Shown in pieces: positions 6,014 to 36,643 of a DNA stretch of 64,000 nt. The position numbers and the translations under genes are program-made. This stretch comes from Pelagibacteraceae bacterium AG-390-L03. Its GTDB lineage: Bacteria > Pseudomonadota > Alphaproteobacteria > Pelagibacterales > Pelagibacteraceae. The notes under the pieces were generated by a model. The model did no database searches. It had not been told where the DNA came from and was given only the letters and a program-made list of their open reading frames with translations. The stretch spans positions 1 through 64,000 of the forward strand of contig QCHA01000001.1 of NCBI GenBank assembly GCA_003279685.1, read 5' to 3'. Each line of letters opens with the position of its first letter. Within the stretch, counting starts at the first letter, position 1.

Positions 6014-6919
6014 TTAATTTAATCCAATATATCTTTTATTCCATCTCATTACTAAACTGTAGTAGGTAAGGGATATAAAAAGAAAAAAACCACCAATAAT
6101 AGTATTTGTTGTTGGTATCTCATTAATACCAAATAAAGGTAACCAAACCCAAAAAATTCCACCAATTACCTCGGTCAAAGATAGTAATGTTAATTCAGCA
6201 GCTGGAATAGCTTTTGAACCGATTGAGTACAAAATTAATCCCAAACAAACTAATGTTCCATGTAAAGAAAATAATGAACTGTTGTAGCTTGTTGAAAAGA
6301 AATTTAAATCTTTATAAAAAATCATTATAGTTGCAAAAACTACACAGAACAAACCAGCGAATGCAGTTGTTGTAAACTTTGGTGTATCTTTACGCCATCT
6401 AAGTGATACAGAAAAAACTGCAAAACCAACAGATGAAGTCATACCAAAGACAAATCCAATTAAAGAAGTTTCCGAGTTGTTACCCACCGCCATTATTCCT
6501 ATACCAACAGTCGCAATAATTATTGATATCCAAACATTTAAAGAAATTTTTTCTCTTAAAAATAAAAAAGCCAATAATGCAGTAAAAAATGGCATAGCTG
6601 CTAAACATAATAAAGTAATAGCAGCACTAGTATTAGTAATAGAAAACATAAAAGAAATCATTGCAACACCTAAGCCTGACCCTCCTATTAAGCCAGATAA
6701 ACCAATCTTAAAATAATTTTTGTAAAAATTCTTTCCTTCTTCAAAAAACAAATATAAATTTAAAAGAATAAATATTGTAAGGCCTCTCCCAAAAATATAC
6801 TGCCAAGGAATTAATTGAGGATCATTCATATATCTAACAACCAAAGGACCAAAGGACCATACTAGGCCAGCAAATAATACTACTGGTACCGCTATTCTAG
6901 GATTTTTAAGCTCAATCAT
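6014..6919 (-). CDS. EamA-family (DMT) transporter
   Basis: A 301-residue membrane protein with about ten hydrophobic segments and the two-EamA-repeat layout (GLVWSFGPLVVRYM near the start, ALLAFLFLREKISLNVW closing the first half, LLSLTEVIGGIFWVWL in the second). EamA proteins move amino acids and other small metabolites. As the first gene of the operon with creatinase, amidinotransferase and threonine aldolase (spacing 4 bases to the next gene), it is the likely importer or exporter for a guanidino compound or a related amino acid; substrate not readable from sequence. Confidence 0.8.
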   Translation of the reverse strand: MIELKNPRIAVPVVLFAGLVWSFGPLVVRYMNDPQLIPWQYIFGRGLTIFILLNLYLFFEEGKNFYKNYFKIGLSGLIGGSGLGVAMISFMFSITNTSAAITLLCLAAMPFFTALLAFLFLREKISLNVWISIIIATVGIGIMAVGNNSETSLIGFVFGMTSSVGFAVFSVSLRWRKDTPKFTTTAFAGLFCVVFATIMIFYKDLNFFSTSYNSSLFSLHGTLVCLGLILYSIGSKAIPAAELTLLSLTEVIGGIFWVWLPLFGINEIPTTNTIIGGFFLFISLTYYSLVMRWNKRYIGLN

Positions 6920-29639: not shown

Positions 29640-30413
29640 ATGGAAATTAATATAAATTGTGATTTAGGTGAAAAATCTAAATATCATTCTAACAAGTATG
29701 ATCCAGATTTACTTGAAATAGTAAATTCAGCTAATGTTGCATGTGGATATCACGCAGGTGATGTTTCAACAATGCACGATGTAGTTCAAATCTCTAAAAA
29801 AAATGGTGTAAGTATAGGTGCTCACCCATCCTTTAATGATCCTGAAAATTTTGGAAGAGAAAGAATGAACTTAAATAATTCTGAAATTAAAAAATTAATT
29901 TATGATCAGTATGATATTTTACAAAATATTTCAATTCAACATGGTCAAAATGTAACCCACATGAAGCCACATGGTGCGCTAAACAACATGGCTTGTGAAG
30001 ATATTGAGTTAGCAATGACTTTAGCTAATGCAATAAACGAGATTAGTAAAGATTTAATATATCTAGTTCCAACTGGATCAAAAATGGAAGAAGCAGCTAA
30101 AAAACTGAACATGCATATAGCATGCGAAATTTTTGCAGATAGAAACTATGAAGACGATGGAAATTTAGTTTCCAGAAAAAAACCTCACGCATTAATTACT
30201 GATCCAAATGAAGCTAAAAAACATGTTTTAAATATGGTAAAAAATCAGGCACTTAATTGTCACAGTGGAAAGCAAATACCTTGTGAAATAGACTCTGTAT
30301 GCATACATGGAGATAATGAAAGTTCATTATCTACAGCGCAATCGATAAAAGAAAATTTAATAGAAAATGGACTTAAATTAAAACCATTAAACCAAATGAA
30401 AAAATTTATATGA
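29640..30413 (+). CDS. pxpA: 5-oxoprolinase subunit A (LamB/YcsF family)
   Basis: 257 residues from MEININCDLGEKSKYH, the usual start of the family; an in-frame start at 29610 would add ten unrelated residues and collide with pxpB. Seen: NVACGYHAGDVSTMHDVV, GAHPSFNDPENFGRE, THMKPHGALNNM, EIFADRNYEDDGNLVSR and CIHGDN. Divergent from pxpB-pxpC, which completes the enzyme, so both arms probably share one control region. The stop overlaps the next gene (ATGA). Confidence 0.92.
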   Translation: MEININCDLGEKSKYHSNKYDPDLLEIVNSANVACGYHAGDVSTMHDVVQISKKNGVSIGAHPSFNDPENFGRERMNLNNSEIKKLIYDQYDILQNISIQHGQNVTHMKPHGALNNMACEDIELAMTLANAINEISKDLIYLVPTGSKMEEAAKKLNMHIACEIFADRNYEDDGNLVSRKKPHALITDPNEAKKHVLNMVKNQALNCHSGKQIPCEIDSVCIHGDNESSLSTAQSIKENLIENGLKLKPLNQMKKFI

Positions 30414-30922
30414 TGATTAAAAAAACTTTTTTTACAATTATAACGTTAGTTTTGTTGTCAACAAATTTATATTCTGCAGGTACAGAGAGTACCAGCTCTG
30501 CAGGTACAGAGAGTACCAGCAAAGTAAAATCTGATTATGTCAAAGCTGTAGAGTCTATCAAATGGGCAAAAAAATATGAGAAAAAGGGTAAAACTGAAAA
30601 AGCAAATAAAAGATATCAAAAAGCTCAAGAGTTATTAATTAAATCAAATAAAAAAAAACCTCTTCAAGCTGATACTTTAAACTATTTAGGTTTTACAACT
30701 CGTAAGCTTGGTGATTTTGAAAATGGAGAAAAATATTATCTTTTAGGTTTAGAAATAGAACCTAACCACATCGGTATAAATGAGTATTTAGGTGAACTTT
30801 ATGTAGTTACAAACAGAATCGATTTAGCAAAAGAAAGATTAAAAGTATTAGAAAGTTGTAATTGTGAAGAGTATGATGATCTTAAAAAAATTATTGAAGG
30901 TACAAAAAAATCTAAATACTAA
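30410..30922 (+). CDS. secreted TPR-repeat protein with tandem SAGTESTS insert
   Basis: 170 residues with an N-terminal signal peptide ([20 protein letters not shown]), then two copies of SAGTESTS, then TPR-like helices ([65 protein letters not shown]). TPR proteins bind partner proteins; this one probably works in the periplasm. It overlaps the pxpA stop and precedes the D-glutamate cyclase-like gene by 5 bases. Partner unknown. Confidence 0.75.
30473..30520 (+). repeat. 24-bp exact tandem duplication with internal inverted repeat
   Basis: Two identical 24-base units lie head to tail (30473-30496 and 30497-30520). Each contains GGTAC-AGAGA-GTACC, a five-base inverted repeat, and encodes SAGTESTS. 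The pair sits right at the signal peptide cleavage area of the TPR protein. Confidence 0.9.
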
Positions 30923-30927
30923 AACTG

Positions 30928-31713
30928 ATGCTCAATATTCAAGATCCCATTGAAGCTAGAAGAATAATAAGAGAAAATAAATACACAGAACAAACTGCAG
31001 GTTCAGCTAATAGATATGTGCAGGGTAATCTCTGTATACTGCCAAGTAAATACGCTATGGATTTTGCATCTTTTTGTCAAAAAAATCCTAAACCTTGTCC
31101 ATTAATAGGATTTGGTACTAAAGGTGATCCGTCATTAAAGGATTTAGGTGAGATTGATATTCGAACAGATGTTCCTCAATATAGAATTTGGGAAAAAGGA
31201 GAAATTATAGATGAGCCATATGATATTAAAAAATATTGGAATGAAGATCTAACAACATTTGTTTTGGGTTGCTCAATGTCTTTTGAACTTCCTTTGATAG
31301 AGGCTGGAATACCTATTCAACATATTGAAAATAATACCATTGTTCCAATGTATCGTACATCTATTGATTGTGAGCCTGCAGGACAGTTTTCAGGCAAGCT
31401 TGTTGTTTCAATGAGACCTTTAAATTCAAAAGACGCAATTAGATCAATACAAATTAGTTCTAGATTTCCAGCAGTTCATGGAGCGCCTATTCATTTAGGA
31501 GATCCTGCTGAAATTGGAATAACCGATATAATGAAGCCTGAATATGGTGATGCTCCGAGAGCTTTTAGGAATAATGAAATACCAGTTTTTTGGGCATGCG
31601 GTGTAACTCCACAATCAGTCTTAGAAAACTCAAAACCAGATTTTTGTATAACGCATAGTCCAGGTAAAATGCTTATAACTGATAAATTAAATAATGATCT
31701 AGCAGCTTTATAA
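30928..31713 (+). CDS. D-glutamate cyclase/DUF1445 (YcsI) family protein
   Basis: 261 residues: [73 protein letters not shown] and WACGVTPQ. Family members are annotated as D-glutamate cyclase or hydro-lyase; a mitochondrial relative turns D-glutamate into 5-oxo-D-proline. In B. subtilis ycsI lies next to the pxp genes, as here. A link between D-glutamate/5-oxoproline turnover and PxpABC is therefore reasonable. Convergent with livF (0-base gap). Confidence 0.82.
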
Positions 31714-32421
31714 TTAGCTTCCTAAAAAAACTTTTGTAACTTTTTCATTATCAATTAAATCCTCAGATTTTCCATGTATCACAAGTCTTCCACTTTCAAG
31801 AACATAGCCTCTATCAGCCATACTTAAAGCTAATCTAACATTTTGTTCAACAAATAGAATTGATATTCCTTCACTAACTATATTCTTAAAAATCTTAATC
31901 AAATCTTTCATAACCATTGGCGAAAGCCCTAAAAAAGGTTCATCAACCATTAGAAGTTTTGGTAAGCCCATCATACCTCTTGCAATTGCAAGCATTTGCT
32001 GTTCTCCACCTGACATAGTTCGTGCAAGTTGATTAGATCTAGCTTCTAGTTTTGGAAAAATTTTATAAATCTTACTCAAAGAAATATCTAATTGTTCTTT
32101 TGCTTTAGGATGCCAAGCACCAAGTAATAAATTTTGCATTACAGATAAATGAGGAAATACCCTTCTTCTTTCAAGGACATGTGAGATACCAAGCTCTGTT
32201 CTTTTGTAAGTAGGTATTTCTGAAATCAAATCGTTTTCAAAGTGAATGCTACCATTTTTATGATGCGCTAAATTACTAATCGTATTTAAAATAGTGCTTT
32301 TTCCTGAACCATTTGGTCCTAACAATGCTACCATTTCTGCTTTATTTACATTAATTGAAACATCCCAAATAACTTGAAAATCATCATATAAAACATCAAT
32401 ATTTTTTACATCAAGCAGCAT
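31714..32421 (-). CDS. livF: Liv-type ABC transporter ATP-binding protein LivF
   Basis: 235-residue ATPase: Walker A GPNGSGKST, signature MSGGEQQM, Walker B LLMVDEPFLGLSP, His switch LFVEQN typical of LivF. Start ATG at 32421 (MLLDVKN); a TTG one codon upstream is less likely. It overlaps livG by 11 bases. Last gene of livH-livM-livG-livF; energises uptake of branched-chain amino acids or amides. Confidence 0.94.
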   Translation of the reverse strand: MLLDVKNIDVLYDDFQVIWDVSINVNKAEMVALLGPNGSGKSTILNTISNLAHHKNGSIHFENDLISEIPTYKRTELGISHVLERRRVFPHLSVMQNLLLGAWHPKAKEQLDISLSKIYKIFPKLEARSNQLARTMSGGEQQMLAIARGMMGLPKLLMVDEPFLGLSPMVMKDLIKIFKNIVSEGISILFVEQNVRLALSMADRGYVLESGRLVIHGKSEDLIDNEKVTKVFLGS

Positions 32422-33133
32422 CAAACGTTCCTAAATAAGAGTCTATTACTTGTTTATTTTGTTGAATTTCTTTTGGTGAACCATAGGCAATACTTTTACC
32501 TTGATCTAAAGCTAAAACGTTATCTGAGATTTCCATTATAATATTAATGTTATGTTCAATGGTGATAATAGTAACACCTGATTTTTTCAGCTTTTTTATT
32601 AAATCAACTAAACCAGGTATAGTTTTTTGATCAACACCACCTGTAACCTCATCCATTAAAAGTAATTTAGGTTCAATAGCCATTGCTCTAGCCATTTCTA
32701 ATCTTTTTCTTTGCCCTGTTGATAATTCTTTTGCAAAATGATGCCTTTTTTCAATTAAATCAACAAAATCAATAATCTCTAAAGCTCTGTCTCTCGCTTT
32801 TTTTATATTTTTTTCATTAACAAAAGATCCAATCATAACATTTTCAAGCAATGTTTGATCTGCAAATGGTTTTAATTTTTGAAAAGTTCTACCAACTCCA
32901 AGATTGCTTATTTTATCAGGACTTAATCCAAAAATATTTTTATTAAAAAATTCTACTTTTCCACTATCTGCCTTTGTATAACCAGTAATTAAATCAAATA
33001 AAGTAGATTTACCTGCACCATTGGGTCCAATCACACCTAAGATAGTTCCTTCTTCGACTTCAAATGAAATATTGTCATTTGCTTTAATTCCTCCGAAAGA
33101 TCTACTTAAATTTTCAACTGATAATACTTTCAT
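32411..33133 (-). CDS. livG: Liv-type ABC transporter ATP-binding protein LivG
   Basis: 240-residue ATPase: Walker A GPNGAGKST, GRTFQKLKPF, signature LSTGQRKRLE, Walker B LLLMDEVTGG with a TIEHN His switch. The B-site Asp-Glu pair is intact. Overlaps livM by 4 bases (ATGA). Partner of LivF in the same complex. Confidence 0.94.
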   Translation of the reverse strand: MKVLSVENLSRSFGGIKANDNISFEVEEGTILGVIGPNGAGKSTLFDLITGYTKADSGKVEFFNKNIFGLSPDKISNLGVGRTFQKLKPFADQTLLENVMIGSFVNEKNIKKARDRALEIIDFVDLIEKRHHFAKELSTGQRKRLEMARAMAIEPKLLLMDEVTGGVDQKTIPGLVDLIKKLKKSGVTIITIEHNINIIMEISDNVLALDQGKSIAYGSPKEIQQNKQVIDSYLGTFDAA

Positions 33134-34143
33134 CTTTGTTTTTTTCTCTCTAAAATATCTTTGGGAACAAATGATATGAGTCCATCTGGTCTAAAAATAC
33201 AAATTATCATTAAAATTAGGCCATATAGAATTAGATCTACAGCACCACCTGTACCACCTAAATAAATTCTTGAGTATTCTGAAATAGGAATAAGTATTGA
33301 GGCACCTATTATTGGACCCCAAACATTTCCTATACCACCAAGAACAGTTATTAATAAAACAATAATTGAAATCTCAATATTAAAAACTCTGTCTGGATCT
33401 ATGATTAAAATATATTGAGCAAACAAACTACCCATTGGTGCCATTATCATAGCGGAGATTACATAAGCAATTATTTTATAATTTGAAACATTAATGCATA
33501 AGCTTAATGCTGCTTGAGGATCATCCCTGACAGCTCTTAGTCTATATCCTAATTTTGACCTACTTAAGAGCCATACAATAAAAAATGTTATAATAAAAAA
33601 TACTAAAAATATATAATAGTATGAAACTTTGCTGCTATGAAACTGTAATGCTGACCAAGAATCTTCTGAGGTCATTGGAACCCATAAACCTGATGCAGCA
33701 CCAACTAAATCCCATCTTTGAAAAACTACTTGGAAACTTATGCCTATTAACAAAGTAGCAATTGCAAAATAATGTCCACTCAACCTTAACATTGGTATTC
33801 CAATTAAAATTGCAAAAAATCCAGATACTAATATTCCAAAAGGCATACTAATCCAGGGAGAAATTCCATATTCAATATAAAAAAATGAGGTCGCATAAGC
33901 ACCTATCCCAAAAAAGGCGCCATGACCTAAACTAATTTGACCAGAAAATCCTGCAATAACATTCCATGACTGTGCCATAACTGCATGCATAAAAATCATT
34001 ATAAATAAGTGAAGATAAAAAGAATTTAATCCAAATAATGGTAAGGCGAATAATAAAATTATTAAACTACTAATTAAAAAAACAACTCTATTGTTTGTAT
34101 TCCAAAGAGGTTCTGATTTTGCAATTATTAACTTATTGTCCAT
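33130..34143 (-). CDS. livM: Liv-type ABC transporter permease LivM
   Basis: 337 residues with about ten hydrophobic segments: AQSWNVIAGFSGQISLGHGAFFGIGAYATS, GYRLRAVRDDPQAALSLC and TVLGGIGNVWGPIIGA, all LivM signatures. Translation starts at the ATG at 34143, five bases after a GGAAGG Shine-Dalgarno (34154-34149). The first ten residues lie inside the 110-bp repeat array that now separates livM from livH. Confidence 0.94.
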   Translation of the reverse strand: MDNKLIIAKSEPLWNTNNRVVFLISSLIILLFALPLFGLNSFYLHLFIMIFMHAVMAQSWNVIAGFSGQISLGHGAFFGIGAYATSFFYIEYGISPWISMPFGILVSGFFAILIGIPMLRLSGHYFAIATLLIGISFQVVFQRWDLVGAASGLWVPMTSEDSWSALQFHSSKVSYYYIFLVFFIITFFIVWLLSRSKLGYRLRAVRDDPQAALSLCINVSNYKIIAYVISAMIMAPMGSLFAQYILIIDPDRVFNIEISIIVLLITVLGGIGNVWGPIIGASILIPISEYSRIYLGGTGGAVDLILYGLILMIICIFRPDGLISFVPKDILERKKQR

Positions 34144-34253
34144 TAATACCTTCCGAACAAACCTTGTGGCCTATAAATCACAACTAATAGATAAATTGCA
34201 AAAACATATAATAGCTTAAAATCTGATTTTGCAATTATTAACTTATTGTCCAT
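34143..34253 (-). CDS. micro-ORF 2, identical copy of micro-ORF 1
   Basis: Same 36 codons, same Shine-Dalgarno and same TAATG links as micro-ORF 1, because the repeat period (110) equals the length of the frame (111) minus the one-base stop/start overlap. Its stop overlaps the true livM start at 34143. It would encode a short hydrophobic single-helix peptide. No independent function can be argued. Confidence 0.5.
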   Translation of the reverse strand: MDNKLIIAKSDFKLLYVFAIYLLVVIYRPQGLFGRY

Positions 34254-34363
34254 TAATACCTTCCGAACAAACCTTGTGGCCTATAAATCACAACTAATAG
34301 ATAAATTGCAAAAACATATAATAGCTTAAAATCTGATTTTGCAATTATTAACTTATTGTCCAT
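34253..34363 (-). CDS. micro-ORF 1, LivM-head/LivH-tail fusion created by the repeat
   Basis: 36 codons plus stop. It begins at the ATG that overlaps the livH stop (TAATG at 34365-34361), has a GGAAGG Shine-Dalgarno five bases upstream, and reads MDNKLIIAKS (LivM start) joined to DFKLLYVFAIYLLVVIYR...LFGRY (LivH end, one membrane helix). Its own stop overlaps the start of micro-ORF 2. Whether the peptide is made or matters is unknown; it may only keep ribosomes moving toward livM. Confidence 0.5.
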   Translation of the reverse strand: MDNKLIIAKSDFKLLYVFAIYLLVVIYRPQGLFGRY

Positions 34364-35229
34364 TAATACCTTCCGAACAAACCTTGTGGCCTATAAATCA
34401 CAACTAATAGATAAATTGCAAAAACATATAATAGCTTAAAAGATGGATCTATTAACAATCCACCCAATGATTCTACTAATCCAATAATTACTCCTGCATA
34501 TAAGCAGCCAATAATACTTCCAAAGCCTCCAAGGGCTACAGCAACAAAGGCAAATAACGCGAAATTTATTCCAACATCAGTAAAAATAAAAAAATAATTA
34601 GCCATCATACCACCTGCAACTCCAACACATCCAAGTCCTATAGCCCAACCTATTGCAAACATTTTATTTGAAGGTATGCCTAAAATTTCAGCTGCATGTC
34701 TGTCTTGAGCAGTTGCTTGAAGAGCTAAACCAGTTTCAGTTTTCGTTACAAATAAATATAAACCAATAAAAGCAACTAAACATACCAGACTTGCTATTAA
34801 TTGTGGCTGACCAATAAAAACAGAGCCGATTTCTAGCCTACCTTCTAACAGAGGTTTATCTACATTTCTAAAATCTGGTGTCCAAAGTAATTGAGCGATT
34901 GATCTAATAAATATTGATAATCCAAATGTTGCACAAATTTGAATTAACATTTTAGCTTTTAAAATATATCTTATTAAAAAGTAGTGTGTAATTATTCCAC
35001 AAAAAGCCATTAACAAAATTGTTATTGGAATAGAAAAAATTGGATCCAAACCAAATAAAGACCATAACCAAAAAGATGAAAACATAGATAACATTAAATG
35101 CTCTCCATGGGCAAAATTAACAATTTCCATTAATCCAAATATTAAACTTAATCCTGCAGCTATTAATGCATAAATTAATCCCATCATTAATCCAGTTACT
35201 ATAGCTTGAAGAATTATTTCAGAGGTCAT
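34363..35229 (-). CDS. livH: Liv-type ABC transporter permease LivH
   Basis: 288 residues, about eight hydrophobic segments: GLMMGLIYALIAAGLSLIFG, EIVNFAHGEHLMLSMF, GLALQATAQDRHAAEILGI and FVAVALGGFGSIIGC, as in LivH. The last 26 residues are also present twice more in the repeat-born micro-ORFs downstream. First gene of the livHMGF operon, divergent from the binding-protein gene. Confidence 0.94.
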   Translation of the reverse strand: MTSEIILQAIVTGLMMGLIYALIAAGLSLIFGLMEIVNFAHGEHLMLSMFSSFWLWSLFGLDPIFSIPITILLMAFCGIITHYFLIRYILKAKMLIQICATFGLSIFIRSIAQLLWTPDFRNVDKPLLEGRLEIGSVFIGQPQLIASLVCLVAFIGLYLFVTKTETGLALQATAQDRHAAEILGIPSNKMFAIGWAIGLGCVGVAGGMMANYFFIFTDVGINFALFAFVAVALGGFGSIIGCLYAGVIIGLVESLGGLLIDPSFKLLYVFAIYLLVVIYRPQGLFGRY

Positions 35230-35386: not shown

Positions 35387-36643
35387 ATGAAAAAATTAAT
35401 ACTTTCAGTATTTACTTTTTTATCATTGGTTTGTGCGCCAGTTATAAGTTCTGCACAAGATGTTAAAATTGGAGTACTGTATCCATTAACTGGTCCTGTA
35501 GCTCAAGTTGGTAAGGACGCAGTTGCAGCAGTTCAAACTGCTTTAGATATTATTAATAATAGCCACAATATTCCTGGAATGCCTTTAGCAAAAGATGCTG
35601 GTCTTAAAGGATTAGGTGGTGGAAAAATATCTATCGTTGTAGGTGACCATGGTGGAAAACCTGATGTTGGTGTTGGTGAAACCGAAAAGATGTTAAATTC
35701 TGATAAAGTTCACGCGATGTTTGGAGCTTATTACTCATCTGTTACTGGTGCAGCTAGTCAAGTATCTGAAAGAGCAGGAATTCCTTGGGTTAATGGAGAA
35801 TCTACATCTCCAAAATTAACTACTAGAGGATTTAAATATTTCTTTAGAGTTACACCTCATGATGGAGAGTTTACTCAATTAATGTTTGAATTTATGAATG
35901 ACTTTAACAAGAAAAATAGCAATAAGCTAAACACTCTTGGTATAATTCATGAAGACACTTTATGGGGATCAGATAGCGGTGGAACTCAAAACAAAATGGC
36001 TAAAGATCAAGGTTATAAAGTTATAGAAAAGATAAGTTATAAAGCGAAAACAACAACTTTAAGTTCTGAAGTTCAAAGATTGAAAGCAAAAAACCCAGAT
36101 GTTTTGTTGCCTTCATCTTATACTGCTGATGCTTATTTATTTTTAAATACAGCAAAAGAACTTGATTATAACCCAAAACTTTTGGTTGCTCAAAATGCTG
36201 GTTACACAGATCCTAAATTTATAGCTACAATGGGAAGCAAAGCAGAAGGTGTGATTACAAGATCGCCTTTTAATACTGACTTAGCAACTACTATCCCAAT
36301 GATAGGAACTGTAAATGATCTTTTCAAAACACATTCAGGTGGAAGAGATTTGTCTGATGTACCTGCTAGAGCATTTACTGGTTTTATGGCTTTAGCTAAT
36401 GCAATTAATAATGCAGGATCAACTGACCCTGAAAAAATTAGACAAGCATTGGTTAATCTAGATATGTCATCAGAATCTTTAATTGTTCCTTATAGAGGAA
36501 TTAAATTTGGTGCTGATGGTCAAAATGAGAAAACAAGAGGTATTTTAATGCAAGTTCAAGGTGGAAAATACTGTACTGTTTATCCATTTGAATTGGCTGC
36601 ATGTAAATTGCAGTACCCAATGCCTACTTGGGCTCAAAAATAA
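35387..36643 (+). CDS. livK: periplasmic binding protein of the Liv-type ABC transporter
   Basis: 418 residues with a signal peptide (LILSVFTFLSLVCAPVISSA) and the Peripla_BP_6 fold: VKIGVLYPLTGPVAQVG, MFGAYYSSVTGAASQVSERAGIP, FRVTPHDGEFTQL, IIHEDTLWGSD, YKAKTTTLSSEVQRLK. Binds the ligand for LivHMGF, probably a branched-chain or other amino acid or an amide; the ligand is not readable. A strong GAGGGG Shine-Dalgarno (35375-35380) marks it as highly expressed, usual for binding proteins in SAR11. Confidence 0.88.
   Translation: MKKLILSVFTFLSLVCAPVISSAQDVKIGVLYPLTGPVAQVGKDAVAAVQTALDIINNSHNIPGMPLAKDAGLKGLGGGKISIVVGDHGGKPDVGVGETEKMLNSDKVHAMFGAYYSSVTGAASQVSERAGIPWVNGESTSPKLTTRGFKYFFRVTPHDGEFTQLMFEFMNDFNKKNSNKLNTLGIIHEDTLWGSDSGGTQNKMAKDQGYKVIEKISYKAKTTTLSSEVQRLKAKNPDVLLPSSYTADAYLFLNTAKELDYNPKLLVAQNAGYTDPKFIATMGSKAEGVITRSPFNTDLATTIPMIGTVNDLFKTHSGGRDLSDVPARAFTGFMALANAINNAGSTDPEKIRQALVNLDMSSESLIVPYRGIKFGADGQNEKTRGILMQVQGGKYCTVYPFELAACKLQYPMPTWAQK

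Follow-up and report, generated by a model that had tools for sequence, protein, structure and literature searches.

The 64,000-nt stretch of DNA analysed here (the window) carries on its minus strand two intact permease genes, one of livH type (34363-35229, 288 aa) and one of livM type (33130-34143, 337 aa), followed downstream in the same operon by genes for a livG-type ATPase (32411-33133) and a livF-type ATPase (31714-32424), both also on the minus strand. A substrate-binding protein gene (35387-36643, plus strand) diverges from this permease operon, and a PRK05463-type putative hydro-lyase gene (30928-31713, plus strand) and the livF-type gene adjoin end to end. Both permeases score above the Pfam threshold for BPD_transp_2. 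Because they fall below the NCBIfam equivalog/subfamily cut-offs for two components of the high-affinity branched-chain amino acid transporter, LivH (98.6 vs 379 bits for the livH-type permease) and LivM (118.4 vs 366 bits for the livM-type permease), and, in both cases, for the urea permeases UrtB/UrtC, we use livH and livM as type names only, with no substrate implied. The distribution of the gene pair is patchy, with matches at E 1e-20 or better in 19 of 399 genomes of the genus (this one included), which suggests an accessory transporter; many of the genus genomes are incomplete.

Where the two permease genes meet, positions 34112-34441 consist of three head-to-tail units of 110 nt that are identical letter for letter, an arrangement far beyond what chance would produce. 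The array spans the end of the livH-type gene and the start of the livM-type gene and leaves both intact. In reading order, the first unit (34332-34441, minus strand) contains the genuine 3' end of livH, stop codon included, along with a first livM-like start, the second (34222-34331, minus strand) is an exact extra copy, and it is in the third (34112-34221, minus strand) that the full-length livM-type gene begins. Between the genes lie two micro-ORFs, at 34253-34363 and 34143-34253 (both minus strand), that encode the same 36-aa sequence, a LivM head fused to a LivH tail. Every link in the series from the livH-type gene through the two micro-ORFs to the livM-type gene is a 1-base overlap of stop and ATG, in the form TAATG. 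The three identical units and the chained micro-ORFs had both been read correctly in a preliminary description of this DNA, the latter being confirmed by the minus-strand ORF coordinates.

A protein search with LivM, taking one genome per species, returned 48 named loci, nearly all of them from SAR11 (Pelagibacterales) genomes by title and many of these single-cell genomes by title. The unit matched exactly once in 47 of the 48; the remaining locus (L062) ends short of the junction and is unreadable there. Alignment ran unbroken across the junction in 46 loci, and in one other (L078) the gene pair gave no alignment, yet the unit still matched once. A second set, drawn from 398 sampled genomes of the genus other than this one and overlapping the first in its genomes, contained 18 that match at least part of the gene pair (E 1e-20 or better), of which 17 have one copy at the junction and one (G103) falls short of it. 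The nearest relative, SAG-MED50 (L032), shares 94.1% DNA identity across the two genes and has one copy. Since every readable junction among these relatives holds a single copy, the triplicated state is derived and, to date, confined to this assembly, and an inherited array can be rejected. The 1-base overlap between livH and livM is itself common, occurring in 34 of the 47 readable relatives (23 as TAATG, 11 as TGATG), with other spacing in the remaining 13.

The array also appears to be young. No substitution separates the copies in 330 bases, and 10-14 changes would be expected had they dated from the split with SAG-MED50. The corresponding 95% upper limit on their age is 0.21-0.30 of the time since that split, provided that the copies have undergone no homogenisation or exchange with one another.

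Translational coupling is known for overlapping genes with TAATG or ATGA, and the livH-livM boundary resembles such pairs in its 1-base overlap but differs from them in having two additional 36-codon frames in between. Both genes would survive a duplication of any length here, because the first copy keeps the end of the first gene and the last copy keeps the start of the second. The preliminary description had pointed out that the unit is one base shorter than the micro-frame, but a meaningful design is not supported. The frame arithmetic is unremarkable, because the identical TAATG chain arose in 3050 of 9488 simulated triplications, 60-160 bases long, placed across the livH-livM boundary (32%), matching the one in three expected from reading frame. 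Nor did the idea that each unit has its own Shine-Dalgarno sequence hold up: the GGAAGG ahead of each ATG is formed by the last Gly-Arg codons of LivH, carried along with the unit, and relatives have GGCAGG, GGTAGG or GGAAGG once at the same place. The micro-ORFs would be passive by-products of the duplication.

Repeats were also sought elsewhere in the genome, which comprises 1,352,095 bases in 19 contigs and is 93.3% complete. In 298,088 bases (the window and 12 further stretches), the livH-livM array was the sole one with a unit longer than 24 nt at a match of at least 90%, and a further 60,843 bases yielded none with a unit longer than 27 nt; the two scans together cover about 359 kb, roughly a quarter of the genome. 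The same match level gave no array with a unit of at least 18 nt in 306,960 bases from relatives, a non-random sample taken entirely from around the same locus. Shorter repeats accompany two other genes. An exact 2 x 24-base tandem repeat at 30473-30520 lies in frame inside a gene at 30410-30922 (plus strand), whose product is a predicted secreted, repeat-bearing protein, and doubles the sequence SAGTESTS near its N-terminus. Outside the window, at 70623-73145 of contig C1 (6623-9145 of stretch L110), is a gene for a protein of 840 aa that begins with a signal-like segment and has a very high content of Met, Gly and Ala. Its C-terminus is a collagen-like Gly-X-Y tail; an 18-base repeat of 4.4 copies (6652-6730 of the same stretch) goes with that tail.

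On balance, we think it probable that 110 bp spanning the livH-livM boundary were recently duplicated in tandem, and then triplicated, in a single SAR11 lineage, and that the array is effectively neutral and probably unstable. Short tandem duplications in bacterial genomes are known in the form of join-point duplications and their amplification. The array resembles them in its exact head-to-tail copies, in its restriction to one lineage and in the whole genes at its ends; adjacent, direct and exact copies, together with a single copy in close relatives, are what a recent event of this kind would leave. A neutral recent duplication was the second of two options in the preliminary description, and the single copy in relatives supports it. 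The array differs from the typical case in having three copies rather than two, and in its join: many known examples have short direct repeats there, whereas the livH-livM array has none. The junction that separates the array from the one-copy state is marked by the boundary AAATCAGA/TTTTAAG, and microhomology at the unit join amounts to 0 bases on both sides, which bears out the earlier statement that the junction lacks homology and leads us to reject an origin by slippage between short direct repeats. We know of no slippage route that easily yields a first copy with zero microhomology, and this counts against the duplication reading.

A perfect 10-base inverted repeat, TTTTGCAATT/AATTGCAAAA, occupies unit positions 19-28 and 96-105, near both unit ends. 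It predates the duplication, because the one-copy locus of SAG-MED50 has it too. An equally good and equally placed pair occurs in 68 of 33,890 overlapping 110-nt stretches (0.2%) in the first 34 kb of the window, by limits that were chosen after seeing the case. The first join may have been made without homology, perhaps aided by this inverted repeat; one could imagine a folded strand bringing the two unit ends together. Identical adjacent copies exchange easily, so that further copies follow, and the third copy would have been gained by slippage or unequal exchange between the first two. Such an array would be expected to gain and lose copies easily, and its effect on fitness is probably slight. 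A mobile or phage origin was rejected, as the exact 22-base junction pattern was found in none of the IMG/VR contigs searched (near records may be omitted), and the titles and abstract openings of literature on SAR11 and tandem duplication held nothing on such an array.

An alternative that we take seriously, although we would put it at somewhat less than an even chance, is that the cell had one copy and that the extra copies originated in genome amplification or in assembly. The array is seen in this single draft genome and in none of the relatives read, its copies are exactly identical and its join is blunt, all as an artefact might have it. Since many relatives bear the titles of single-cell genomes, the source genome may be one as well. 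In addition, the ends of 18 of the 19 contigs show no overlap with another contig (contig 19 reads N), which suits coverage gaps more than breaks in a repeat graph. These same ends speak neither for nor against a contig-overlap artefact of fixed k-mer size. Against the artefact, a failed merge of overlapping contigs would yield two copies, and three would require the same blunt join twice; furthermore, no other array with a unit longer than 27 nt turned up in the roughly 359 kb scanned. MDA chimeras resemble the array in that nearby segments are joined and the join is absent from relatives, but in the portion of the chimera study consulted most are inverted, with complementary bases at the join (PMC1855051), whereas the livH-livM array is direct and blunt. 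That portion counts 337 of 475 chimeras as inverted within 10 kb and just 11 of 475 as direct within the same distance, and threefold exact direct copies are not among the chimeras it reports (PMC1855051).

We consider it very unlikely that the array has been selected, with the two micro-ORFs lowering or buffering the amount of LivM made per LivH, or with copy number acting as a reversible dial. In its favour stand the unbroken chain of 1-base stop/start overlaps, with the initiation region present three times, and the general expectation that exact repeats as long as these change in copy number; the coupled pair of micro-frames might reduce the output of LivM. Yet the relatives read have a single copy, so that neither array nor micro-ORFs are conserved, and the same chain is expected in a third of such duplications. 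Moreover, the permeases are expected to work as a pair, and unequal output would bring no clear benefit. Repeated sequence by itself can raise the strength of an RNA fold, and the fold of the array is just mildly stronger than that of shuffled sequences (z -2.25, with 3 of 100 shuffles equally good), so we rejected a special RNA fold. We likewise rejected a promoter or terminator inside the repeat, which has 12 promoter-like sites, fewer than the 16.3 in shuffles, and no terminator-like site. A related proposal, to which we give hardly any credence, is a translational attenuator of variable copy number, in which an unstable boundary repeat places n-1 coupled micro-ORFs between two transporter subunits; were it true, copy number would set the subunit ratio across members of a SAR11 population, and loss of units would regenerate single-copy cells.

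The livH-livM junction illustrates clearly how duplication across an operon boundary spares both genes and yet, about one time in three, yields new in-frame small frames accessible to ribosomes. If the copies are artefactual, the locus is a caution against inferring function from repeats in one draft assembly. If instead they are real, as recent tandem duplication would have it, the array provides a natural setting in which to study copy-number change in a streamlined genome.
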